Assembly: GCF_000227685.2 (NCBI RefSeq)
Contig: NZ_CP007029.1
Location: forward strand, 1,772,501-1,836,500
DNA from: Thioalkalivibrio paradoxus ARh 1
GTDB lineage: Bacteria; Pseudomonadota; Gammaproteobacteria; Ectothiorhodospirales; Ectothiorhodospiraceae
Direction of reading: 5' to 3'
Length of the DNA: 64,000 nt
Part shown: positions 37,991 to 59,387 of the stretch, piece after piece
How the letters are laid out: every line of letters starts with the position of its first letter
Numbering within the stretch: position 1 is the stretch's first letter
Position numbers and translations under genes: made by a program
Notes under the pieces: model-generated
The model's input: the letters and a program-made list of their open reading frames with translations, nothing else
Databases searched by the model: none
Told to the model about the DNA's origin: nothing

Positions 37991-38019
37991 CCCCCGTACA
38001 CCAGATCTGAGCTTAACTC
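37991..38019. repeat. IS256 element, right terminal inverted repeat
   Basis: Its reverse complement begins GAGTTAAGCTCAGATCTGG and pairs with the left repeat; the shared core is ATCTGGTGTA. Confidence 0.8.
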
Positions 38020-38055
38020 GGCTGGTCGACACCACCATCCCTTGCGAGGCTGACC

Positions 38056-39918
38056 ATGTTCCACACACGCCCTCTTCTCCTTCTGCTCGTGCTCGCCCTG
38101 GCACTCCCCAGTCTGCTCGCATGTGGTGACCCGGAGGCTCAGGCAGAGGGCGATGACCCCGAGCAGATGGCCCGCCAGGCACCGCCCGAACACGACCCCG
38201 AAGCGACCTACAAGGGCCGCACTGCGGCTGAGCACGCCGAACGCCTGGCCGACCTCAGCCACATGCGACAGCTCTCTGCCCTGGAAGACATCGCCGCTAT
38301 GGGCGTGCACGGTCTGCCCGCACGCGAAGCCATCCACGCACTCATCGACGGGATCGAAGCCCGAAACCTGGACCCCCGGGTCGCGGAGCATGTCGAACTG
38401 GCGGCGCTGGGCACCCTGTACCACATCGAGGCCCCGGAGGCACCCGCGATGGCACGCCAGCGAATCCTGGACCCCGGCTACAGCGAACGCACCGGCACCT
38501 ATCGGCGACTGATGGGCGCCGCCCTGAACAGCGGCATGGATCCAGAGAGCCTGGGCGCCGACATCATCGGGCTGGCGACTTCCGAGCCGGAGCATGCGGC
38601 GCGCCTGCTGCGCACCGAGGCACTGCCGGATACCGTCCAGGCCGATCTGGCACAGGCCCTATTCCCGCTGGACCACGACGCAGAGACCACCCGCTTCTTC
38701 CTCGAAAAGCTCGCCGACTTCGACTTCATCGAACCCGCCCAGACGCTGGATTACATCCGCTCCCATCAGGACCTGGCCAGCGAGAACAGCCGGGCCACAC
38801 ACAGCCTGCTGGTCATCATCGGGACCGAAGAGGCCCTGGATCTCGCGCTCGACGTCAGCGGCTCCACCGCGGTGGGCGAACCCCGGCTGGTCGGCCTGTT
38901 CGCCCAATCGGAGATGGGGGCGGAACGCGCGATGGAGCGAATACTGGAGGCGGCCATGGCAGCCGAAACGCCGGAGGCCATCAAGGCTGCGACCGACGCC
39001 CTGGGGGGCCTCACTCAAGAGTTGATCCGGCCGTTCCGGGGGCGCACGGCAGAACCGGGAACTCCGGAGATGAACCTCGAGATCGTGCATGATCTGCATG
39101 TCGGGGCGCTGGCCCGATTGATTCGGGAAGGCTCCACCGAGGCGCATCAGGCGCAGGGGATCGAGAGCCTCGGCGGGTATCTGCGCAACAACCGGGAGGT
39201 GCCGCCCAACCCGGCGCTGGAACCGGTCTTCGCGATCGCCACCAGCCCGGAGCACGGACGTGAGGCGAGGCTGAACGCCCAGCAGACCTTGCAGGCCACG
39301 GTGACCTCCTTCGGCGGGGCGCTCGAACAGGATCCGGAGTACGTCTATACGGAAACCGTCCGGATGCTATGGACCGGCACCGATGCCGAGACCACCGAGG
39401 TGGCGCAGCGGATCCTGGGTAATGCGCGGCGCTCGTCGGAACACGCGGCCCTGGTCCTCGAACAGCTCAGCCTGACGATGGAGGCACACCTGGACGACTG
39501 GGCGGTCAACCCGGCCGCGGCCGTGGCACTGAGCCTGGCGAGCATGGACGCCTTCGATCGCCACCCCGCGCGTGAACAGGGCACCGTTGTCGTGGGCCAG
39601 CTCATCGCCAGCGAGCAGGCCGACTTGGCGTTTCTCGAGCCGCCGATGAGGCGGCACATGAATACCCTGGCCAATGCAGGCAACAACTCCGCGACCGGCA
39701 CCATCGGGCTGATTGGGCCCACCATCTTTGCCGAGCACGCGGCGCTGCATCGGGAATTCGAACCCGCCGCCTTCGCCCAAATCATGCTGCAACAGCCCGC
39801 CTGGCTAACCGACGAACCCGGGGCGGCCGAGCAGTGGCAGGACTTCCTGCAGCAAGTGGTCGCAGCCGACCGCGAGCACTTCAGCACCACGGCCCAGGAA
39901 GCGCTGGACGCCCTGTAG
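38056..39918 (+). CDS. Lipoprotein with helical (HEAT-like) repeats
   Basis: The 620-residue protein has a lipoprotein signal (LLLLLVLALALPSLLACGDP, lipobox LLAC) and an acidic, almost entirely helical mature chain with HEAT/TPR-like periodicity (for example SHMRQLSALEDIAAMGVHG and LPAREAIHALIDGIEARNL). Family unknown; a protein-binding scaffold in the periplasm is likely. GCGAGGC precedes the ATG. An IS256 element ends 36 bases upstream, so the native promoter may be lost. It is followed by two more exported proteins on the same strand. Confidence 0.75.
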   Translation: MFHTRPLLLLLVLALALPSLLACGDPEAQAEGDDPEQMARQAPPEHDPEATYKGRTAAEHAERLADLSHMRQLSALEDIAAMGVHGLPAREAIHALIDGIEARNLDPRVAEHVELAALGTLYHIEAPEAPAMARQRILDPGYSERTGTYRRLMGAALNSGMDPESLGADIIGLATSEPEHAARLLRTEALPDTVQADLAQALFPLDHDAETTRFFLEKLADFDFIEPAQTLDYIRSHQDLASENSRATHSLLVIIGTEEALDLALDVSGSTAVGEPRLVGLFAQSEMGAERAMERILEAAMAAETPEAIKAATDALGGLTQELIRPFRGRTAEPGTPEMNLEIVHDLHVGALARLIREGSTEAHQAQGIESLGGYLRNNREVPPNPALEPVFAIATSPEHGREARLNAQQTLQATVTSFGGALEQDPEYVYTETVRMLWTGTDAETTEVAQRILGNARRSSEHAALVLEQLSLTMEAHLDDWAVNPAAAVALSLASMDAFDRHPAREQGTVVVGQLIASEQADLAFLEPPMRRHMNTLANAGNNSATGTIGLIGPTIFAEHAALHREFEPAAFAQIMLQQPAWLTDEPGAAEQWQDFLQQVVAADREHFSTTAQEALDAL

Positions 39919-39972
39919 GCATCCGGCCCTCCGTTACGCTACCCATCCAGGGTTCACAAAGGACATTGCCCC

Positions 39973-40731
39973 ATGCCGATCCAGATCACTTGCTCCCGCA
40001 CCAGTCGCCTGTTCGTGGCGGCGGCCGGCCTGTTCGTCACGACCGCGCTCATGAGCACGCCGGTCGCGGCGCAGGACATCAGCGACATGGACTCCCAGGA
40101 CATCCGCAGCATGACACCGCTGGGTTCGCTCCAGGCCACAGTCGGAACCGAAACCCTGGAGTGGACCATCCTCCATGGTGAAGTCGACGGCGAGAACCTG
40201 GCCTCGGCCAGTTGGCAACCCATCACGATGCCCGAAAGTCCCATGGCCCGAATGATGGCGAACATGGATGAAGAACAGCGTCGCCAGATGGAAGAGACCA
40301 TGGGTGCCGCCGGCGTGGGTGTCGACCGGCAGTACGTCCGCATACGCATCACCGGCTTCGATCCCGAATCCGGAAAGGTGCAACGCGCGGGGATGCTCTC
40401 GATCGAACTGGGGATGCTGGCCACCCGCGACATGGACGCCGTCCACGCGCAGCCACACCAAGCGGACGTCTCCTACTACCGGAAAACCGACGACGGCGTC
40501 ACCCTACTGGTCGCCAACACCCGCTCCGCCGGAGCCACAACGACCGTTGACTTCGACCGCCTGGAAGTGAACGACGGCAAAGGTTCCGCCGAAGGACGCT
40601 TCAGCGCAGACCTGTGCCCCATGCGGCAGGTCGTGCGCAACACCATCGAGCCCGAAAGCTGCATCACCCTCGAAGGTGAATTCACCACGCGACTGGCGGA
40701 GCAGGAACCCGTCAGCATGACGGGACAATGA
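39973..40731 (+). CDS. Exported protein of unknown function, 252 residues
   Basis: A signal peptide (LFVAAAGLFVTTALMSTPVA, then AQD) precedes a beta-rich mature domain starting LGSLQATVGTETLEWTILHG. The middle has a methionine-rich segment (SPMARMMANMDEEQRRQM), which might bind metal or be a flexible loop. Two cysteines (ADLCPMRQ and ESCITLEG) near the C-terminus could form a disulfide. No family is recognised. It lies 54 bases after the HEAT-like lipoprotein gene and may share its transcript. Confidence 0.65.
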   Translation: MPIQITCSRTSRLFVAAAGLFVTTALMSTPVAAQDISDMDSQDIRSMTPLGSLQATVGTETLEWTILHGEVDGENLASASWQPITMPESPMARMMANMDEEQRRQMEETMGAAGVGVDRQYVRIRITGFDPESGKVQRAGMLSIELGMLATRDMDAVHAQPHQADVSYYRKTDDGVTLLVANTRSAGATTTVDFDRLEVNDGKGSAEGRFSADLCPMRQVVRNTIEPESCITLEGEFTTRLAEQEPVSMTGQ

Positions 40732-40738
40732 TTGTCCC
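40722..40738. repeat. Perfect 17-bp interrupted palindrome
   Basis: GGGACAAT and its reverse complement ATTGTCCC flank one central G, across the stop codon of the preceding gene. It is too tight for an RNA hairpin, so if it has a role it is as a dimer-binding operator, or it may be chance. Confidence 0.4.
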
Positions 40739-40826
40739 CTGACAATCTGCCACCCCGGCAACCCGCCCGAGCGCCTCCAGAGGCCCGGGCCACCAGAAAC
40801 CACCACGCATACAGCGGGGGTCCCAC

Positions 40827-41222
40827 ATGTTCAAGACCATGTCCTGTGTCCTGGGAGCGGTATTCGCTTTCGGCCTTGTTATCGAGTCCGCCGCAGCCCG
40901 CGGCTATGTCCCCATCGGCGGAAACCAGGGAGCGAATTATACGCCGCAGAACCCCAATGACCCCGATTCCCGATCGGCCGACGAAGGCGGAGCCTCCAGT
41001 CGACCCGATTCAGGGCGCTCCACTCGCCAGCCGGGCCTGACCACCCCCTCCCCGGGCGTGGTCGCCCCCTCACATGGCTCAGGACAAATCCCGGTTCAGG
41101 AACCGGGCCGAATCAACCCCGGGACCCGGAATGTGACGCCAGCGCAGGGCGTTGAAGGTCCAGGGGCGATGCCGAAACCGGGCGACCCCGGCTCCGGAAG
41201 AACGACCCCCGGCGGGCGATAA
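40827..41222 (+). CDS. Exported low-complexity protein, 131 residues
   Basis: A signal peptide (FKTMSCVLGAVFAFGLVIES, then AAARG) is followed by a disordered mature chain dominated by Gly, Pro, Ser, Asn and Thr (for example SRPDSGRSTRQPGLTTPSPG). No fold or motif is seen. It could be a secreted linker-like or surface protein. It follows two other exported proteins in the same direction, about 95 bases downstream of the second. Confidence 0.5.
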   Translation: MFKTMSCVLGAVFAFGLVIESAAARGYVPIGGNQGANYTPQNPNDPDSRSADEGGASSRPDSGRSTRQPGLTTPSPGVVAPSHGSGQIPVQEPGRINPGTRNVTPAQGVEGPGAMPKPGDPGSGRTTPGGR

Positions 41223-41353
41223 GAGAAGCCCGATAAGATCATGGGTGCCGGTCTCGTTTTCTGACTTGGTTTTCCCCAACGCTTGGCTACGCGGCAGGCG
41301 CGTGAAGGCGAGAGTTGGCTATACCGTGGCTACACGGACCCCAGAAACGAAAA

Positions 41354-41376
41354 AGGCCACCCTGCAAAGGTGGCCT
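41354..41376 (-). terminator. Rho-independent terminator of tRNA-Asn
   Basis: Reading the minus strand, AGGCCACC and GGTGGCCT form an eight-base perfect stem with a seven-base loop, followed by TTTTTCGTTT. It lies 17 bases after the tRNA 3' end. Confidence 0.85.
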
Positions 41377-41392
41377 AAGTCGTTGTTTTATC

Positions 41393-41468
41393 TGGCTCCC
41401 CGGGACGGACTCGAACCGCCGACCTAGTGATTAACAGTCACCCGCTCTACCGACTGAGCTACCGGGGA
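41393..41468 (-). tRNA. tRNA-Asn (GTT)
   Basis: A 76-base tRNA with encoded CCA. The acceptor arm TCCCCGG pairs with CCGGGGA, the D arm has GCTCAGTCGGTAGAGC, the anticodon loop CTGTTAA gives GTT, and the T arm has GGTTCGAGTCC. All four arms pair well. Confidence 0.97.
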
Positions 41469-41507
41469 TTGGGAAGCCGCGAATGCTAAAGTCCGGCGCT
41501 CTGCGAG

Positions 41508-42695
41508 TCAAGCGCCGCGGGCGAAGCGGCCGATGCGCTCGAGCGCCTGGTCGAGCACGGCGAGGCTGGTGGCGAACGAGATGCGCACATGGCCGTCGAG
41601 GCCAAACGCGCTGCCCGGAACCAGTGCGACACCGACGTCGTCGAGCAGACGGCGCGAGAACTCGATATCGTCGGCGATGCCGCGGGCCTGCATCGCGCCG
41701 GTTACTCTCGGGAAGCAGTAGAAGGTGCCGTCCGGCATCAGGCATTCGACACCGGGGATCGCGTTCAGGCCGTCGACGACATGCCGGGCGCGCTTCTCGA
41801 ATTCGACGCACATGTCGCGCACGCACTGCTGGTCGCCGTTGAGAGCCACGACCGCAGCCGCCTGCGCGATCGAGGTGGGGTTGGAGGTGCTCTGCGACTG
41901 CACGTTCTTCATCGCGCCGATCAATTTCGCCGGGCCACCCGCGTAGCCGATCCGCCAGCCGGTCATCGCGTAGGCCTTCGACACGCCGTTCAGCACCACG
42001 GTGCGCGGCGCCAGGTCGGGCGCGACGTTCAGGATGTTCACGAACTTCGCGCCGCCGAACAGGATGTGCTCGTACATGTCGTCGGTCGCGATCACGAGGT
42101 TCGGGTGTTCGCGCAGCACCTCGGCCAGCGCCGAGAGTTCATCGGCACTGTAGGCCGCACCCGTCGGGTTCGATGGGCTGTTCAGGAAGATCAGCCGCGA
42201 TCTCGGCGTGATCGCAGCGCGCAGCTGCTCGGCGTTGATCCGGAAGCCGCTTTCCTGCGTTGCAGTGATGAACACCGGCGTCGCGTCCGCGAGCAGCGCG
42301 ATGTCCGGGTAGGAGACCCAGTAGGGCGCCGGAATCAGCACCTCGTCGCCCGGGTTCAGCAGCGCCTGTGCCAGGTTGAAGATGCTCTGCTTGCCGCCGG
42401 AGGAAACCAGGATCTCGTTCGGTTTGAACTGGAAGCCGTTGTCGCGTTCGAACTTCGCGATGATCGCCTGCTTCAGCGCGGCGGTGCCGTCGACCGCGGT
42501 GTACTTGGTTTCCCCGCGGGCAAGCGCATCGATCGCGCCCTGCTTGATATGCTCCGGGGTATCGAAGTCGGGCTCCCCGGCACCGAGACCGACGATGTCG
42601 CGGCCCTCGGACCTGAGCTGCGCGGCAAGCGCGCTGACCGCCAGGGTAGGGGAGGGCTTGATGCGCTGAACGCGTTCGGAAAGTTGGATGTCCAA
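41508..42695 (-). CDS. Pyridoxal-phosphate aspartate aminotransferase (class I)
   Basis: Cytoplasmic aminotransferase, probably aspartate to oxaloacetate with 2-oxoglutarate, of the I-gamma (thermophile/Rhizobium AspC) type. The 395 residues begin with the standard LSERVQRIKPSPTLAVSALA. The active site shows SGGKQSIFNLAQALLNPGDE, NSPSNPTGAAYS and the Schiff-base lysine in VVLNGVSKAYAMTGWRIGY. The start is a TTG with AGAGG six bases before it; no ATG occurs nearby and family alignments begin here. It is divergent from uvrB with only 58 bases between. Confidence 0.93.
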   Translation of the reverse strand: MDIQLSERVQRIKPSPTLAVSALAAQLRSEGRDIVGLGAGEPDFDTPEHIKQGAIDALARGETKYTAVDGTAALKQAIIAKFERDNGFQFKPNEILVSSGGKQSIFNLAQALLNPGDEVLIPAPYWVSYPDIALLADATPVFITATQESGFRINAEQLRAAITPRSRLIFLNSPSNPTGAAYSADELSALAEVLREHPNLVIATDDMYEHILFGGAKFVNILNVAPDLAPRTVVLNGVSKAYAMTGWRIGYAGGPAKLIGAMKNVQSQSTSNPTSIAQAAAVVALNGDQQCVRDMCVEFEKRARHVVDGLNAIPGVECLMPDGTFYCFPRVTGAMQARGIADDIEFSRRLLDDVGVALVPGSAFGLDGHVRISFATSLAVLDQALERIGRFARGA

Positions 42696-42753
42696 GACGG
42701 GCCTCTGGCAAGCACTGGAATGAGGGAAGCAGCGTTGGTCGCTGCACTGCGAA

Positions 42754-44820
42754 ATGATACTGAAATCAGACGTGCAAGATAAGGCGGAAGCGGGCCAGCG
42801 GCTCGAGGTCGTGTCGAGTTACCAGCCGGCCGGCGACCAGCCCGAGGCGATCCGGGCCCTGGTCGACGGGATCGAGTCCGGCCTCGCGCACCAGGTGCTG
42901 CTCGGGGTGACCGGCTCGGGCAAGACGTTCACGATCGCGAACGTGATCGAACAGGTGCAGCGGCCGACGATCATCCTCGCGCCGAACAAGACACTGGCGG
43001 CCCAACTCTACGGCGAGATGAAGGAGTTCTTCCCGCATAACACGGTGGAATATTTCGTTTCCTATTACGACTATTACCAGCCCGAGGCCTATGTGCCGTC
43101 GTCGGACACCTACATCGAGAAGGACGCGTCGATCAACGACCACATCGAGCAGATGCGCCTGTCCGCGACGCGCGCGCTGCTGGAACGGCGCGACGCGATC
43201 ATCGTCGCCAGCGTATCGGCGATCTACGGCCTGGGCGATCCCCGCAAGTACCTGTCGATGGTGCTGCACATCAAGCGCGGCGACCGGGTGGACCAGCGCG
43301 AAATCCTGCGCCGGCTGGCCGAGCTGCAGTACACGCGCAACGACATGGAACTGCGCCGGGCGACCTACCGTGTGCGCGGCGAGGTGATCGACATTCACCC
43401 GGCGGAATCGGAGGCCGAGGCGGTGCGCATCGAGCTGTTCGACGACGAGGTCGAAAAGCTCAGTTATTTCGACCCGCTGACCGGAGAAGTCCTGCGCACG
43501 GTGCCGCGGTTGACGATTTACCCGAAGACCCACTACGTGACGCCGCGCGAGACCCTGGTTGCGGCGGTGGATGAGATCCGCGAGGAACTCAAGCAACGCC
43601 TGGACTTCCTGCGCAACGAGAACCGCCTGGTCGAGGCCCAGCGCCTGGAGCAGCGCACGGTGTTCGACATGGAGATGATCCTCGAGATCGGCTATTGCTC
43701 CGGGATCGAGAACTACTCGCGCTACCTTTCCGGCCGTGCCGCCGGCGAGCCGCCACCGACGTTTTTCGACTATCTGCCGCCCGATGCGTTGCTGGTGATC
43801 GACGAGTCGCATGTTTCGGTACCGCAGATCAACGGGATGTTCCGCGGCGACCGCTCGCGCAAGGAGACGCTGGTCGAGTACGGCTTCCGGTTGCCGTCGG
43901 CGCTGGACAACCGGCCGCTGCGCTTCGAGGAGTTCGAGCACCTGCAGCCGCAGACCATCTACGTCTCCGCGACTCCGGGGCCGTATGAGCTGGAACACGC
44001 CGGGGCCGTGGTGGAACAGGTGGTCCGGCCGACCGGCCTGCTGGATCCAAGGCTGGAGGTGCGCCCGGCCAGCACCCAGGTCGACGACTGCCTGTCCGAG
44101 ATCCGCCTGCGCCTCGAGCGCAACGAGCGGGTGCTGATCACCACCCTGACCAAGCGCATGGCCGAGGATCTGACCGACTACCTGTCCGAGCACGGCGTGC
44201 GGGTGCGTTACCTGCACTCGGACATCGATACGGTCGAGCGCATGGAGATCATCCGCGACCTGCGCCTCGGCGAATTCGACGTACTGGTCGGGATCAACCT
44301 GCTGCGCGAAGGCCTGGACATGCCCGAGGTCTCGCTGGTTGCGATCCTCGATGCCGACAAGGAGGGCTTTTTGCGTTCGGAGCGCTCGCTGATCCAGACC
44401 ATCGGGCGCGCGGCGCGCAACGTGAACGGCATGGCGATCCTGTACGCGGACACGGTCACCGGCTCGATGCAGCGGGCAATCGAGGAAACCGAGCGCAGGC
44501 GCGAGAAACAGATGGCACACAACGAGCGCCACGGCATCACGCCGCTGGGCATCCGCAAGGCGGTCGCCGACATCCTCGAGGCGCGGGCCGATCCGCGCCA
44601 GGCCCGGCGGGGGCGCGACCGTCGCGTGGCCGAGACGTCCCCGGCGTACGCCGACACCCCCGACCATGCCACCCGCGAGATCGAACGCCTGGAGAAGGAG
44701 ATGTACGAGAAGGCACGCAACCTCGAGTTCGAGGAGGCCGCGCGGCTGCGTGACCGCATCCAGGACCTGAAGGAACGCGCGTTCCGCCCGGAAGCCGCGC
44801 TGCAGCATACCGGTTCCTGA
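42754..44820 (+). CDS. uvrB: UvrB, excinuclease ABC subunit B
   Basis: Helicase-like core of nucleotide excision repair; it receives damage from UvrA and recruits UvrC. The 688 residues show Walker [15 protein letters not shown], the beta-hairpin [40 protein letters not shown] and the helicase motif [14 protein letters not shown]-terminal UVR domain (about 640-675, [20 protein letters not shown]) binds UvrC. The ATG lacks a clear ribosome binding site, and a GTG at 42771 is possible. No LexA box of the CTGT-N8-ACAG type is seen upstream. Four bases separate it from the next gene. Confidence 0.97.
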
Positions 44821-45397: not shown

Positions 45398-46432
45398 ATG
45401 AGCGAATTCCTGGGCCCGGTGATGCTGGGTATAACGGGGCTGGAACTGACCCCGGAAGATCGCGAGCGCCTGCTGCACCCGGCCACCGGCGCCGTGATCC
45501 TGTTCACTCGGAACTACGAGAACCCGGAGCAGCTTCGGGCACTGGCTGCCGAGATCCGTTCCCTGCGGCAACCGGAACTGCTGCTGGCGGTGGATCACGA
45601 AGGCGGGAGGGTGCAGCGCTTTCGCACGGGGTTTACCGAATTGCCGCCGATGCGACGCATCGGCGACGTGTTTTCCTACGATCCGACCCGGGGGCAGGAG
45701 CTGGCGCGGGATGCCGGATGGCTGCTGGCGCAGGAACTCAAGGCCGCCGGTCTGGACTTCAGCTTCACCCCGGTGCTGGACCGCGACGCGGGTATCAGCG
45801 AAGTGATCGGCGACCGCGCGTTCCACGATCGGGCGGACGTGATCGCCCGGCTCGGCGGCTGCCTGCTCGACGGACTCGACGAGGCCGGAATGTCGGGGGT
45901 CGGCAAGCATTTTCCGGGGCATGGCGGCGTCGCCGCGGATTCGCACGAGGAGCTGCCGGTGGATCCGCGTCCATTCGCAGAGATCGAGGCCGACGACATC
46001 GCGGCCTTTCTGCCGCTGTTGCCGCAACTGGGCGGCATCATGCCGGCACATGTGATCTATCCCGACGTGGATTCGAGTCCCGCGGGTTTCTCGGGGATTT
46101 GGCTGAACGACCTGCTGCGGGTGCGCTGGGGCTTCGACGGCGCGCTGTTCAGCGACGATCTGGGGATGGCCGGCGCCCACTTCGCGGGCTCGCCCGCCGA
46201 CCGCGCCCATGCGGCCCTGTATGCAGGTTGCGACATGGTCCTGATCTGCAACGATTTCGCCGCGGCCGACGAAATCCTGCAGACCCTCGAAGGGCGCGAT
46301 TCGAACCCCGACACGCAGCGCCGGCTCGAAGCCATGCGTGCCCGGCCGGCGGCACAGGATCCCGCTCGGATCGAGGCCGCGCAGTCCCGGTTGCTGGCGT
46401 TGGCCGACCGCGAACCCACCTACATCACCTGA
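45398..46432 (+). CDS. nagZ: NagZ, beta-N-acetylhexosaminidase
   Basis: Cytoplasmic family 3 glycoside hydrolase that removes N-acetylglucosamine from anhydromuropeptides in peptidoglycan recycling. The 344 residues are standard length. Signatures are LLLAVDHEGGRVQRFRTGFT, the family-defining KHFPGHGGVAADSHEELPVD (His is the acid/base and Asp assists) and the nucleophile Asp in GALFSDDLGMAGA. It fits functionally with the PBP1C and alpha-2-macroglobulin genes elsewhere in the window, but is not linked in an operon with them. Confidence 0.96.
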   Translation: MSEFLGPVMLGITGLELTPEDRERLLHPATGAVILFTRNYENPEQLRALAAEIRSLRQPELLLAVDHEGGRVQRFRTGFTELPPMRRIGDVFSYDPTRGQELARDAGWLLAQELKAAGLDFSFTPVLDRDAGISEVIGDRAFHDRADVIARLGGCLLDGLDEAGMSGVGKHFPGHGGVAADSHEELPVDPRPFAEIEADDIAAFLPLLPQLGGIMPAHVIYPDVDSSPAGFSGIWLNDLLRVRWGFDGALFSDDLGMAGAHFAGSPADRAHAALYAGCDMVLICNDFAAADEILQTLEGRDSNPDTQRRLEAMRARPAAQDPARIEAAQSRLLALADREPTYIT

Positions 46433-50459: not shown

Positions 50460-51209
50460 ATGAGCGACGCAGGTCTGGCGATCATCGGCGGCACGGGGCT
50501 GACTCGGCTCAAGGATCTCGAAATCACCCGCCGCGAAGTGATGCACACCCCCTACGGTGAGCCTTCCGGGCCGCTGACCTACGGCCGTTACCACGGCCAC
50601 GAGGTCATCTTCCTGCCTCGTCACGGGGCTCAGCACACGATTCCACCGCACCAGGTGAATTACCGGGCCAACCTCTGGGCGCTCCGGAACGCCGGCGTCG
50701 ACACCGTGCTTGCGATCGCCGCGGTCGGCGGGATCACCGCAGAGATGGCACCCGGTGTGATCGCGGTACCCGACCAGATCATCGACTATACCTGGTCGCG
50801 CTTTCACACCTTCTTCGAGGGTGACGGGAACGAAGGCGTGACCCACGTCGACATGACCTATCCCTACAGCCAGGAACTCCGGGAGACGCTGATTGCAGCG
50901 TCGCGGGAGCTCGGTCTCGGGGCGGTCGAGCAGGGCACCTACGCCGCGACCCAGGGGCCCCGCCTGGAGACCGCGGCCGAAATCGATCGACTGGAGCGCG
51001 ACGGCTGCGACCTGGTGGGCATGACCGGTATGCCCGAGACGGCCCTGGCGCGCGAACTGGAGCTGCGCTATGCCTGTTGCGCGGTGGTTGCGAACTGGGC
51101 CGCGGGCCGGTCGGAAGGCGTGATCACGATGGACGACATCGCGCGCAACCTCGAAACCGGGATGGCGCGGGTGAAGCGGCTCTTGCCGGAAGTGATCTCC
51201 CGACTCTGA
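50460..51209 (+). CDS. S-methyl-5'-thioinosine phosphorylase (MTAP/PNP family)
   Basis: The 249-residue phosphorylase is of the trimeric MTAP/PNP type. It begins LAIIGGTGLTRLKDLEI and has the phosphate site PRHGAQHTIPPHQVNYRAN and the methionine/ribose site GMTGMPETALARELELRY. In place of the Asp-containing loop ATDYD of adenine-specific MTA phosphorylases it has VVANWAAG with Asn, which marks 6-oxopurine specificity as in Pseudomonas S-methyl-5'-thioinosine phosphorylase. Hypoxanthine released would be salvaged by the upstream phosphoribosyltransferase. GAGG precedes the ATG, just after a hairpin. Confidence 0.88.
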   Translation: MSDAGLAIIGGTGLTRLKDLEITRREVMHTPYGEPSGPLTYGRYHGHEVIFLPRHGAQHTIPPHQVNYRANLWALRNAGVDTVLAIAAVGGITAEMAPGVIAVPDQIIDYTWSRFHTFFEGDGNEGVTHVDMTYPYSQELRETLIAASRELGLGAVEQGTYAATQGPRLETAAEIDRLERDGCDLVGMTGMPETALARELELRYACCAVVANWAAGRSEGVITMDDIARNLETGMARVKRLLPEVISRL

Positions 51210-51390
51210 GAGGCTCTCCGCCGGAACGCAGACGCATGGCCGGAAATTGGCCGGTGGAATCGAGAGGCGCGGGCAACTAGCCACCGGCACCAGGGCACAG
51301 CCTCCGTATACCGTGCGCTTCAGTCATTGGGAACTTGGGAGAGCGAGTGGTGCGTCTCCCGGATCCGCCGAACGCCCAGGCACGCATCGA

Positions 51391-51418
51391 ATTTAACATA
51401 ATATACATTATGCGAAGT
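51391..51418 (-). other. dif: Chromosome dimer resolution site dif
   Basis: On the minus strand the 28 bases match the E. coli dif site at 25 positions by my recollection of that sequence. The XerD arm TATTATGTTAAAT and the centre CATAATGTATATTATG are identical, and the differences fall at the outer end of the XerC arm. XerC and XerD would recombine here to resolve chromosome dimers, with FtsK as motor. Gene orientation and KOPS-like motifs change at this point, as expected for a replication terminus. It lies in the gap between a plus-strand and a minus-strand gene. Confidence 0.9.
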
Positions 51419-51450
51419 CGGATTCGCGGCTGTGGCTGGCAGTGCCTAGG

Positions 51451-52086
51451 CTACTGCGGCCCTGGCTCGCCCTGCGGCTCGATCAGTTGCCAGCGCGACA
51501 GCAGTGCCGGCCCGCGCACCTCCGCTCCGAGTGCACGCAGCCACTGGGCGACCCGGGTGTTCGAGTTGTTCCGCCAGGTATACGGCTCCGGGTGCGGTGC
51601 AAACACGAGATCGTACATCGCCACGTACCGGTGCCGTTCGGGCTTGCGCGCGTGCAGTGCGTCGAGTTCGTCGCGCAGCCGATCGGCATCGGCACCGGAG
51701 ACTCGCAACGGGTACACCGCCTGAACGCCCACCCGCAGCTGCGCCAGCAATGCCGGCTCCTCCGGAGGCCCCCTTAACTCCCGACGTGCCAGCGTCGCCG
51801 GGGTCCTCAGGAACAGCGCAGCCAGCGCCGATCCGATCCTCATGTCCTGATCGGCATAGAAGCGCCAGTCGCCGTAGGCATAGCGAACCATCGAACCCGC
51901 CGGCGTGGCGACCACCAGGCTGGTATGCCGGCCATGGTCCAGCAGGAACACCGCCCGCGGATCGTCCACCTGCAGAGGCGGCTGGACCGGGGTCGCAGAA
52001 CATCCCTGTATCAGAACAATGACCAACAGAAGTAAGGCCGTTTCGAGAATTCGACGCGGTCGCGGCACTGTGCGGTCCCCTTGCAT
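51451..52086 (-). CDS. Lipoprotein, possible DUF2459-like
   Basis: The 211-residue lipoprotein has the signal ETALLLLVIVLIQGCSATP (lipobox IQGC). The mature part contains AVFLLDHGRHTSLVVATPAG and YGDWRFYADQDMRIGSALAA, followed by a cluster of Arg-rich helices and an ending TRVAQWLRALGAEVRG. The HGRHTSLVV stretch resembles the opening of DUF2459 (TIGR02117) proteins, whose function is unknown. The ATG at 52086 is chosen for CCGGAG upstream; an in-frame ATG at 52098 lacks a site. It lies just right of dif. Confidence 0.7.
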   Translation of the reverse strand: MQGDRTVPRPRRILETALLLLVIVLIQGCSATPVQPPLQVDDPRAVFLLDHGRHTSLVVATPAGSMVRYAYGDWRFYADQDMRIGSALAALFLRTPATLARRELRGPPEEPALLAQLRVGVQAVYPLRVSGADADRLRDELDALHARKPERHRYVAMYDLVFAPHPEPYTWRNNSNTRVAQWLRALGAEVRGPALLSRWQLIEPQGEPGPQ

Positions 52087-52181
52087 CGGCTCCGGCATAC
52101 CGCGGCCGCGGAATCCCCGATCGGCCTCAGTGTGCCTGGGCGATTTCTGTGAAACGAAACGCCATTCGATCGATCGCCTTA

Positions 52182-52368
52182 GCGTGAAAGTCACGGCCTG
52201 TCTCGTGTCCCGGGCAACCCGTAGGGCGGAAAAGCGCAGCGTCATCCGCCGCTCGGCGTTCGCGCCTGCGCGGCGCCTGCGGCAACCCCGGCGCCAGCTG
52301 GCGGATGACGGCCTTCGGCCTTTTCCGCCCTACGCCTCTTTCATCATCGGGGGTGGCCACAGGGGTCA
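52182..52368. repeat. MITE-like palindromic repeat, copy A
   Basis: The core at 52221-52333 begins GTAGGGCGGAAAAGCGCAGC and ends with its imperfect inverse, GGCCTTTTCCGCCCTAC. The inner arms CGTCATCCGCC and GGCGGATGACG pair as well. Flanking sequence on both sides (GTGAAAG at the left, TTTCATCATCGGGGGTGGC at the right) is shared with the copies near 57.6-58.0 kb, so the mobile unit is larger than the hairpin. Confidence 0.8.
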
Positions 52369-52374
52369 TGGCAG

Positions 52375-53028
52375 TTAGCCCTTGGAGTCCGCCGACGCCA
52401 TGGCGGTACGGATGGCCTGCAGCATCGGCTCGGGATCCCGGTAATCGATCGGGATCGGCCGGTACCCGCGCGCGTCCCAGAAGACCAGCGCCGGAAAACT
52501 CTCGACATCCATCTCCCGCGCCAGTGCGATCTCGGCATCCAGTTCCTGCTGCACCGATTCCGACTGCAGCGCTTCGCGGAACTGATCGATGTCCAGGCCC
52601 AGTTCTTCGGCCAGCGCAATCAGGGTCGCCTGATCCGACGGATTCCGTGCCTGGGTGTAGTACGCGCGCTGAATCGCGGTGTTCATCGGGTATTCCCACT
52701 GCTCTCCCTGGCACCGGGCCGCGATCACCGCGCGGCAGGCGGCATAGGTGGCGCGCCGCGGAACGCACTCGGTCCAAAACGCGAAGTTGAGTTCGGTGTC
52801 GGGTACATGCTGCTGGATCCTGCGCCACGACGACTGCACCATCTCGCGCAGGTCCTCGGACATGGGTTCGTCGGTATCGGGTGCCAGCCCTCCAAGCAGC
52901 CGGCGGACCTCGATCTCCGGAGGCAGGCGTTGCAGAAGTTGTCCCAGCACCGGTGCCATCGCCCAGCACCAGCTGCACATCGGGTCGTGCACGTAATAGA
53001 GCACGGGTTTCTCAGGGAAGGAATTCAT
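52375..53028 (-). CDS. DsbA-family thiol oxidoreductase, cytoplasmic type
   Basis: The 217-residue protein has a thioredoxin fold with helical insertion and a CSWC active site in YYVHDPMCSWCWAMAPVL near the start. There is no signal peptide, so it belongs with FrnE/HCCA-isomerase-like DsbA relatives in the cytoplasm. The cis-proline loop is MDVESFPALVFWD. Substrate is unknown. It is separated from the lipoprotein gene downstream by a MITE-like repeat. Confidence 0.88.
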   Translation of the reverse strand: MNSFPEKPVLYYVHDPMCSWCWAMAPVLGQLLQRLPPEIEVRRLLGGLAPDTDEPMSEDLREMVQSSWRRIQQHVPDTELNFAFWTECVPRRATYAACRAVIAARCQGEQWEYPMNTAIQRAYYTQARNPSDQATLIALAEELGLDIDQFREALQSESVQQELDAEIALAREMDVESFPALVFWDARGYRPIPIDYRDPEPMLQAIRTAMASADSKG

Positions 53029-56187: not shown

Positions 56188-57234
56188 TCACGCCTCGTAG
56201 AGCATCAAGTCGGCGACCCGTTCCGACCACTCGGCGAACTGCGGCACCGAGAACAGCTCGTCGCCCAGTGCCCGGTGCATGTCGGTCACCATCATGATGC
56301 CCATCTCGCGCTGCGGGAACGTGCTAGCGTAGTTCAGGATATTTCCCTGCACCTCGACCGACGACGCGGTTCCCCGCGCGCGGATCGCCCGGCCGACCAG
56401 CGCCGCCGCGACCGCGTACTGCAGGTCGATCTCGCGCGGCGCGTCCACGGACTCGCCGCGCACGATCGCGTCCAGGTCGGGCATCTGGTCGAGATGGGCG
56501 ATGAATGCGTTGAGTTCGATTCCGGCCGCCTGCCCCACGCAGGCCTGCAGCGAGCCGCTGAGCAGTTCCGGGTGTGTCTCGAACTTCTGCAGTGCCCGGT
56601 GCGCAAACTCCCAGGAGCGCGGCGACGGGAATGCGACCGGGTTGTGCGCCGGGTCGAACTCGAACAGCAGGTCCGGGCGGAAGCGGATGAAGGCGATGAC
56701 GCGGTCGTCGATCCCACGCGCGTAGGCCCAGGCCGCCCAGTCGTCGACGTTCAGCTCGACCTCGAAATGCGAGAAGCGGTTCGCCAGCGGTGCCGGCATC
56801 GTGTAGGTCACGCCGCGGTCGCCCTGACGGTTGCCGGCGGCGAAGATCGCCCAACCCGGCGGCACCTCGTAGGCGCCGAGCCGGCGGTCCAGGATCAGCT
56901 GGTAGGCAGCGGCCGACACGCTCGGCGGCGCCGAGGTGATCTCGTCCAGGAACAGGATGCCCGACGCGCCTTGCCGGTCGGCGTCCGGCAGCATCGACGG
57001 CACCGCCCATTCGACCAGGTCGCCGTCCTTGAACGGGATCCCGCGCAGGTCCGAAGGCTCCATCTGCGAGAGGCGGATATCGATCAGCGGCACTCCATTG
57101 CGGGCCGCGACCTCCGCGATCATTTGCGATTTCCCCACACCGGGCGGCCCCCAGAGCATTACCGGGGTGTGGTGTCCCTCGAGGGTACTGGCAAACTCGC
57201 GGTCAAGCACTTGCAGCAAATGCGCGGGTCGCAT
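56188..57234 (-). CDS. MoxR-type AAA+ ATPase
   Basis: The 348-residue chaperone-like ATPase has Walker A WGPPGVGKSQMIAEVAARNG, the pre-sensor region LSQMEPSDLRGIPFKDGDLV, Walker B GILFLDEITSAPPSVSAAAY and sensor 1 WAIFAAGNRQGDRGVTYTMP. A lid domain ends the chain. MoxR ATPases work with a VWA protein, here the next gene, to remodel or activate a target enzyme. The ATG has GGAGGAGCG directly before it; the open frame continues far upstream but without coding character. First gene of the MoxR/VWA/DsrS unit. Confidence 0.93.
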   Translation of the reverse strand: MRPAHLLQVLDREFASTLEGHHTPVMLWGPPGVGKSQMIAEVAARNGVPLIDIRLSQMEPSDLRGIPFKDGDLVEWAVPSMLPDADRQGASGILFLDEITSAPPSVSAAAYQLILDRRLGAYEVPPGWAIFAAGNRQGDRGVTYTMPAPLANRFSHFEVELNVDDWAAWAYARGIDDRVIAFIRFRPDLLFEFDPAHNPVAFPSPRSWEFAHRALQKFETHPELLSGSLQACVGQAAGIELNAFIAHLDQMPDLDAIVRGESVDAPREIDLQYAVAAALVGRAIRARGTASSVEVQGNILNYASTFPQREMGIMMVTDMHRALGDELFSVPQFAEWSERVADLMLYEA

Positions 57235-57542
57235 CGCTCCTCCAATCGGTCTCGTAGTCGTCGCCGGCAACCGCCCTGCTGCGGAAAACCCGGCATCGCG
57301 TAAGCTGCACCGGCCCTGGCAGACCCGGCGCAGGTTCCGCCTCTGCCTGCGCACCGCAATTTCTGCGGGGCAGTGGTGATCGGTGCCAGGCGTCCGGCCC
57401 GCCTGCAATCGAGAGGGCGGCCGGCGCCAGCCAGCGACGCAGACTACGGGGTTCGCCCGGTGATTTCCACTGCACCTACAGGGGGCGGTTTTTTCGCGCC
57501 AGACCGGGCCCGTGCACCCCAGGCGAGCAGCGCCGGCGTTAA
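57235..57542. other. Upstream region of the MoxR gene, nothing recognised
   Basis: About 300 bases that must hold the promoter of the MoxR/VWA/DsrS unit. No clear promoter hexamers, RNA gene or operator are seen; the region abuts the MITE-like repeats. Confidence 0.35.
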
Positions 57543-57737
57543 CGTGAAAGAACCCGCGGCGCGCGTCCGGGGTGACCTGTAGGGCGGAAAAGCGCAGCGT
57601 CATCCGCCGCTCGGCGTTCGCACCTCCCCGGCGCCTGCGGCAACCCGGGCGCCGGATGGCGGATGACGGCCTTCGGCCTTTTCCGCCCTACGATTCTTTC
57701 ATCATCGGGGGTGGCTGCCCGCGCCATGAAAGTTCGC
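57543..57737. repeat. MITE-like palindromic repeat, copy B
   Basis: First unit of a tandem array. The palindromic core is at 57579-57691, with GTAGGGCGGAAAAG and CTTTTCCGCCCTAC at its ends. It is flanked by GTGAAAGAACCCGCGGCGCG on the left and TTTCATCATCGGGGGTGGC on the right. The inner part between the arms differs from the other copies while the ends are conserved. Confidence 0.85.
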
Positions 57738-57940
57738 GTGAAAGAACCCGCGGCGCGCGTCCCGGGTGACCTGTAGGGCGGAAAAGCGCAGCGTCATCCG
57801 CCACATGGCATTCGGATCGCCCCGCGCGGCCTGCGGCAACCCCGACGTGGGAATGGCGGATGACGGCCTTCGGCCTCTTCCGCCCTACGCCTACGCCTCT
57901 TTCATCATCGGGGGTGGCTGCCCGCGCCACGAAAGTTAGC
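57738..57940. repeat. MITE-like palindromic repeat, copy C
   Basis: Second unit, directly following the first, with its core at 57773-57887. Ends are nearly identical to copies A and B while the middle of the hairpin differs strongly, as expected if only the ends or the folded structure are under selection. Confidence 0.85.
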
Positions 57941-58005
57941 GTGAAAGAACCCGCGGCGCGCGTCCCGGGCGACCCGCAGGGCGGAAAAGCGCAGCGTCAG
58001 CGGGG
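57941..58005. repeat. MITE-like palindromic repeat, copy D (left half only)
   Basis: A third unit that keeps the GTGAAAGAACCCGCGGCGCG lead and the left arm AGGGCGGAAAAGCGCAGCGT, then breaks off just before the end of bioA. It is a truncated copy. Confidence 0.75.
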
Positions 58006-58028: not shown

Positions 58029-59387
58029 TCAGGCGCGCACTGCCCGTTCGATGCCCTCGCGCATCACGTCGGCCAGGAAGTCGATCTGCTCCGGGGTGAT
58101 CACATAGGGCGGCATCAGGTAGCTGACATGGCCCAGCGGCCGCAGCAGCGCGCCACGGGTGAGTCCGTAACGGTAAATGTGCAGCCCGCGCCGCTCCTGC
58201 CAGGGAAACGGCGTGCGCGAGGCCTTGTCCTGCACCAGTTCGACCGCGGCAATCATGCCGGTCTGGCGCACTTCGGCGACGTGCGGATGCTCGCGCAGCG
58301 GTGCCAGCGCCTCGCCCATGTGCCGGGCGAGATTCCGGTTGCGCGCCAGCACCGGCTCGCGGTCGAAGATGTCCAGCGTCGCCAGCGCCGCGCGGCAGGC
58401 AAGCGGGTTGCCGGTATAGGAATGCGAGTGCAGAAACGCGTTGAGCCGCTCGTAGTCGTCGTAGAACGCGTCGTAGACCTCGTCGGTCGTCAGCACCACC
58501 GCGAGGGGCAGGTAGCCTCCGGTCAATCCCTTGGACAGGCACAGGAAATCAGGGCTGATCGGCCCCTGTTCGCAGGCGAACATCGTTCCGGTGCGCCCGA
58601 AGCCGACCGCGATCTCGTCGGCGATCAGGTGCACGTCGTAGCGGTCACAGGCCGCGCGCAGCAGCCGCAGATACTCGGGATCGTGCATGCGCATGCCGCC
58701 CGCGCACTGCACCAGCGGTTCGACGATCACCGCGCAGGTCTCGTCGGCGTGCTCGGCCAACGCCCGTTCCATCTGCGCGAACTGGCGCCGCGCCACGTCC
58801 GCGCAGGTTTCGCCCGCTTCCCGCTCGAAGCAGTCGGGTGCCGGTACGGTGATTACCGGCATCATCAGCGGCGCGTAGGTCGATCGATACAGTTCCACCG
58901 CGCCCACGGCCAGCGCACCCAGCGTCTCGCCGTGGTAGCTGTTGCTCAGGCAGATGAAGCGCTGCTTCTCCGGGTGTCCGCGGTTTCTCCAGTAATGGAA
59001 GCTCATTTTCAGCGCCACTTCGACCGCCGCGCTGCCGTTGTCGGCGAAAAAGCAGCGCGTCAGGGGTTCCGGAGTCTTCTCGATCAGGCGCTCCGAGAGC
59101 TGGACCACCGGTTCGTGGGTACAGCCGGCCAGGATCACGTGTTCCAGCTCGTCGAGCTGGTCGCGGATGGCCGCGTTGATGACCGGGTTCGCGTGTCCGA
59201 ACAGGTTGACCCACCAGGAGCTGATCGCATCCAGGTAGCGCCTGCCGTCGAAGTCCTCCAGCCAGACCCCCTCGCCGCGACGGATCGCCAGCAGCGGGAG
59301 GCTGCCCTCCTCGCCGTAATCCTTCATCTGCGTGCAGGGGTGCCAGAGGGCCGCCAGGTCGCGGCGTGTCAGCGAGCGGGAATTCAT
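58029..59387 (-). CDS. bioA: BioA, adenosylmethionine-8-amino-7-oxononanoate aminotransferase
   Basis: Pyridoxal-phosphate enzyme of biotin synthesis; it moves the amino group from S-adenosylmethionine to KAPA to give DAPA. The 452 residues show LWHPCTQMKDYGEEGSLPLL, SSWWVNLFGHANPVINAAI, SNSYHGETLGALAVG, the cofactor Asp in DEIAVGFGRTG and the Schiff-base Lys in LSKGLTGGYLPLAVV. The ATG chosen matches the usual family start; a GTG two codons upstream is possible. It stands alone without other bio genes and without a recognisable BirA operator. Confidence 0.96.
   Translation of the reverse strand: MNSRSLTRRDLAALWHPCTQMKDYGEEGSLPLLAIRRGEGVWLEDFDGRRYLDAISSWWVNLFGHANPVINAAIRDQLDELEHVILAGCTHEPVVQLSERLIEKTPEPLTRCFFADNGSAAVEVALKMSFHYWRNRGHPEKQRFICLSNSYHGETLGALAVGAVELYRSTYAPLMMPVITVPAPDCFEREAGETCADVARRQFAQMERALAEHADETCAVIVEPLVQCAGGMRMHDPEYLRLLRAACDRYDVHLIADEIAVGFGRTGTMFACEQGPISPDFLCLSKGLTGGYLPLAVVLTTDEVYDAFYDDYERLNAFLHSHSYTGNPLACRAALATLDIFDREPVLARNRNLARHMGEALAPLREHPHVAEVRQTGMIAAVELVQDKASRTPFPWQERRGLHIYRYGLTRGALLRPLGHVSYLMPPYVITPEQIDFLADVMREGIERAVRA

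Follow-up and report, generated by a model that had tools for sequence, protein, structure and literature searches.

The window analysed here is a stretch of 64,000 bases corresponding to bases 1,772,501-1,836,500 of a 3,756,729-base contig from Thioalkalivibrio paradoxus ARh 1. Within it, a gap of 241 bases (51210-51450) separates two convergent genes. The first, given as context only, encodes S-methyl-5'-thioinosine phosphorylase on the plus strand (50460-51209; NF006599, 385.7 bits, cut-off 223); the second is an ORF on the minus strand (51451-52245). The first-pass annotation had placed the site under study in a small gap beside a lipoprotein gene. The gap was found as described; the lipoprotein-like character of the ORF was read by eye alone from an 'LIQGC' stretch, and its sole family match, to DUF2459, fell under the Pfam cut-off. 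Plasmid relatives of window 50460-52245 were searched for with megablast and gave no match.

The gap holds a 28 bp dif site on the minus strand (51418 to 51391), with the sequence 5'-ACTTCGCATAATGTATATTATGTTAAAT-3'. It comprises a predicted XerC-binding arm, ACTTCGCATAA (51408-51418, minus strand), the central hexamer TGTATA (51402-51407, minus strand) and a predicted XerD-binding arm, TTATGTTAAAT (51391-51401, minus strand). Six of the 28 bases are G or C, against 66% G+C in the window. The mechanical ORF list also contained a 129-residue frame with a TTG start that crosses dif on the plus strand (51335-51724). This putative ORF was taken as spurious because it overlaps the minus-strand ORF 51451-52245 in antisense.

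A repeat of ∼200 bases occurs once near dif (window 52204-52379) and as a tandem array of 2.3 copies at 57493-57999. A genome search with a 203-base repeat unit, in which 40 of 220 candidate places were scored, gave at least 107 BLAST matches; this count includes partial matches and those on the opposite strand. The repeat overlaps the mechanically called starts of ORFs 51451-52245 and 56188-57603, and the true starts of both are probably further in.

The site was compared with the E. coli dif sequence given in Table 1 of a 2009 survey (PMC2731167). The near-identity claimed by the first-pass annotation was confirmed on the minus strand, with 25 of 28 bases the same. All 11 bases of the XerD arm agree, as had also been claimed, as does the central hexamer. 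The XerC arm agrees at 8 of 11 bases, and the three differences from E. coli are all in the outer part of this arm (positions 1, 2 and 4). The two sites are further alike in being single-copy, intergenic and in the terminus region. When a 30-base query containing E. coli dif was run against 5426 complete E. coli genomes, at least 4787 of them had a near-exact match, with a median of one place per genome. The dif of another organism, Thiobacillus denitrificans, as listed in the same Table 1, has all 28 bases the same as here. At least 119 stretches in the genome collection contain the exact 28-mer; among the matches listed, most titles were of Gamma- and Betaproteobacteria and two were labelled Rhodobacteraceae and Rhizobium. 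Palindromic positions number 20 of 28, against a proteobacterial mean of 16.3 reported in the survey (PMC2731167).

The site lies at bases 1,823,891-1,823,918 of the contig, which is 48.6% of its length and 54.5 kb (1.45% of the contig) off the midpoint. The best DnaA-domain match in the genome was at bases 482-964; with dnaA taken as the marker of the origin, the opposite position expected by the first-pass annotation was borne out. GC skew was calculated in a 468-kb tile around dif, in which 4,500 bases were missing, and the remaining chromosome was sampled as 20-kb stretches. Among the 10 sampled stretches with starts from 1 to 1,692,001, 8 had positive skew; among the 10 with starts from 1,880,001 to 3,572,001, 9 had negative skew. 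The three exceptions among the 20 stretches were weak (-0.0043, -0.0067 and +0.0071). The maximum of cumulative GC skew within the tile was at 1,821,334, 2.6 kb from dif. A skew extreme at the site had been predicted as a minimum; the switch is present, and the extreme is a maximum under the convention used here, in which (G-C) is summed along the contig from dnaA and the terminus is accordingly the maximum. For the separation of dif and the skew maximum, the survey gives a median of 7,277 bp in 161 proteobacterial chromosomes, and a value of 39,100 bp for E. coli K12 in its Table 1 (PMC2731167). The last value bears on the further claim that the site fixes where replication ends: dif is in the terminus region, but it is a site of dimer resolution and not by itself the point at which forks meet.

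A local reversal of GC skew was observed elsewhere in the window at 38001-44000; AT skew there is high as well, with a value of 0.153 at 38-42 kb. A tRNA-Asn gene (window 41393-41468) lies inside this region.

The polarity of the octamer GGGNAGGG, which is KOPS-like and may not be the real KOPS of this organism, was counted in the 468-kb tile. Left of dif, 52 copies point towards the site and 8 away; right of dif, 34 point towards and 5 away. The total of 86/99 towards dif compares with 50/66 for the control octamer GGGANGGG, a difference that was not significant (Fisher p 0.09). The best split point for the polarity of GGGNAGGG was dif itself (86/99); one octamer 1.8 kb away tied with it and none was better. 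Genome-wide there was a small excess of GGGNAGGG, with 653 copies against 559 of the backward-read pattern. The polarity was kept as weak support because the control octamer was also polarised, and plain strand bias accounts for at least part of it.

The recombination machinery was assessed with family models. XerD is encoded in the genome (TIGR02225, 371.8 bits, cut-off 329.6), as is XerC (TIGR02224, 351.3 bits, cut-off 335.15; both NCBIfam). A single match to the FtsK gamma domain was found (PF09397, 102.3 bits, cut-off 30.6). FtsK scored 743.5 against the NCBIfam E. coli-type model, under the cut-off of 1566, with a 533-residue part of an 823-residue frame scanned; the best match of this part was FtsK. 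The genome resembles E. coli in encoding XerC, XerD and the FtsK gamma domain alongside dif. Matches to the phage-integrase family numbered nine in the genome, and the three best, which were XerD, XerC and a third protein, were scanned further. The third is a Xer-like tyrosine recombinase (L007, 1450-2400; genome 788,545 region), nearest to XerA and integron-integrase models and under every NCBIfam cut-off. Three phage-integrase-family matches lie within 13 kb at genome 2,401,796-2,414,415, two of them covering about half of the domain, and this region is perhaps a decayed mobile island.

Conservation was examined in 57 other genomes. Exactly one dif match with no more than 3 mismatches was found in 43 of them, and a reversed control pattern had no match at the same threshold in any of the 58 genomes. 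No dif match at 3 mismatches was found in 14 of the 57 relatives, four of which are <90% complete. Loosening the pattern gave a match in 11 of these 14, in 6 of which the reversed control matched too; clean looser-pattern matches with no more than 2 mismatches were obtained in three genomes. Sites were aligned in one orientation from 30 loci, comprising the window's own and those of 29 of the 43 matching relatives. One locus at a contig end, without the first four bases, was dropped, leaving the window's own site and 28 from relatives, all of the same family. Across the 29 aligned sites 20 of 28 columns are invariant, 3 vary in no more than 3 sequences and 5 vary freely; of these five, columns 2-4 belong to the outer part of the XerC arm and columns 13-14 to the centre. 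In the XerD arm 8 of 11 columns are invariant and 3 vary in no more than 3 sequences. This column conservation is partly built in because the sites were found with a pattern allowing no more than 3 mismatches over 24 bases.

The neighbourhood of dif was compared in 12 of the 43 relatives (10 of the same genus and 2 of another genus). The thioinosine phosphorylase gene adjoins dif on the XerD side in all 10 same-genus neighbourhoods, at a distance of ∼0.15 kb or less in 9 and ∼0.95 kb in the tenth. The genes at window positions 45398, 49313, 49561 and 50460 occupy the same flank of dif in 10/10 same-genus neighbourhoods, while the other flank differs. Within the 20 kb surrounding dif, the 2 other-genus genomes showed no match to the thioinosine phosphorylase gene, and only the gene at 58029, of those tested, was found near dif. 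All 13 window genes tested in genome G010 are collinear about its dif. The survey describes dif as being without an apparent specific genetic environment (PMC2731167). It is unlikely that selection on terminus organisation, as opposed to mere kinship, keeps the locus where it is; common descent within one genus explains the fixed flank equally well.

The 28-mer is almost certainly the dif site of this chromosome. A pattern of the 24-base dif core had one occurrence in the single 3,756,729-base contig with up to 3 mismatches allowed, and the dif arm pair with a free centre likewise had one when its arms were allowed up to 3 mismatches. The single genomic copy sought by the first-pass annotation was therefore recovered even at 3 mismatches. 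In the window, 51391-51418 was the sole match to E. coli dif with no more than 3 mismatches, and the only other 28-mer with at least 17 matching bases was the opposite strand of dif (18/28).

Instead of a working dif, the site could be an attL or attR remnant left by an XerCD-dependent element that had integrated at dif, for instance a filamentous phage. Elements that integrate at dif via XerCD exist (IMEX; PMC5357621), and a 26-base part of dif was found as an exact match in 62 viral contigs, which may be dif-integrating phages or carry host flanks. An integrated element would have two flanking copies, yet the genome has one even when up to 3 mismatches are allowed in the arms; the arrangement by which an IMEX att site is recognised, two dif-like sites around foreign DNA, was thus not found at this threshold. 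None of the nine phage-integrase-family matches lies inside the window, although elements that rely on XerCD can integrate without encoding an integrase. The gene order about dif in G010 matches that of the window, and this collinear neighbourhood, together with the single dif copy, led to the rejection of an integrated-element remnant, which is considered highly improbable. An AT-rich chance match within a GC-rich genome is more improbable still and was likewise rejected, since base composition alone predicts 8e-8 matches of equal quality across the whole genome, 100 dinucleotide shuffles of the window gave 0 matches to E. coli dif at no more than 3 mismatches, and 43/57 other genomes have one close copy while the bases beyond dif differ.

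With the 28-mer read as dif, a scheme for its use can be proposed from the FtsK/XerCD pathway of E. coli and Vibrio. An odd number of crossovers would fuse sister chromosomes into a dimer. The variable arm of dif would be bound by XerC and the conserved arm by XerD. At the septum, FtsK would follow KOPS-like octamers pointing at dif from both sides and bring two dif copies together. FtsK would then activate XerD and XerC would complete the exchange, so that XerCD recombination would split the dimer into monomers. We infer binding, recombination and FtsK guidance in this organism by analogy with what is established in E. coli and Vibrio, and nothing observed suggests a departure from dimer resolution as it occurs there. 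One basis for the FtsK and XerCD steps is published E. coli and Vibrio work (PMC5357621).

The site is a routine, textbook feature, and its exact 28-mer has already been published as dif elsewhere. It is like proteobacterial dif in general in being non-coding, low in G+C, palindromic and near the skew maximum, and no notable difference was found. The survey reports proteobacterial dif in 87.8% of 156 species (PMC2731167), and a large-scale prediction of dif across bacterial genomes has also been published (PMC3025954). The understanding of dimer resolution is unchanged by this dif. Its value lies in reliably anchoring the terminus region and the boundary between replichores, in this chromosome and in its genus.
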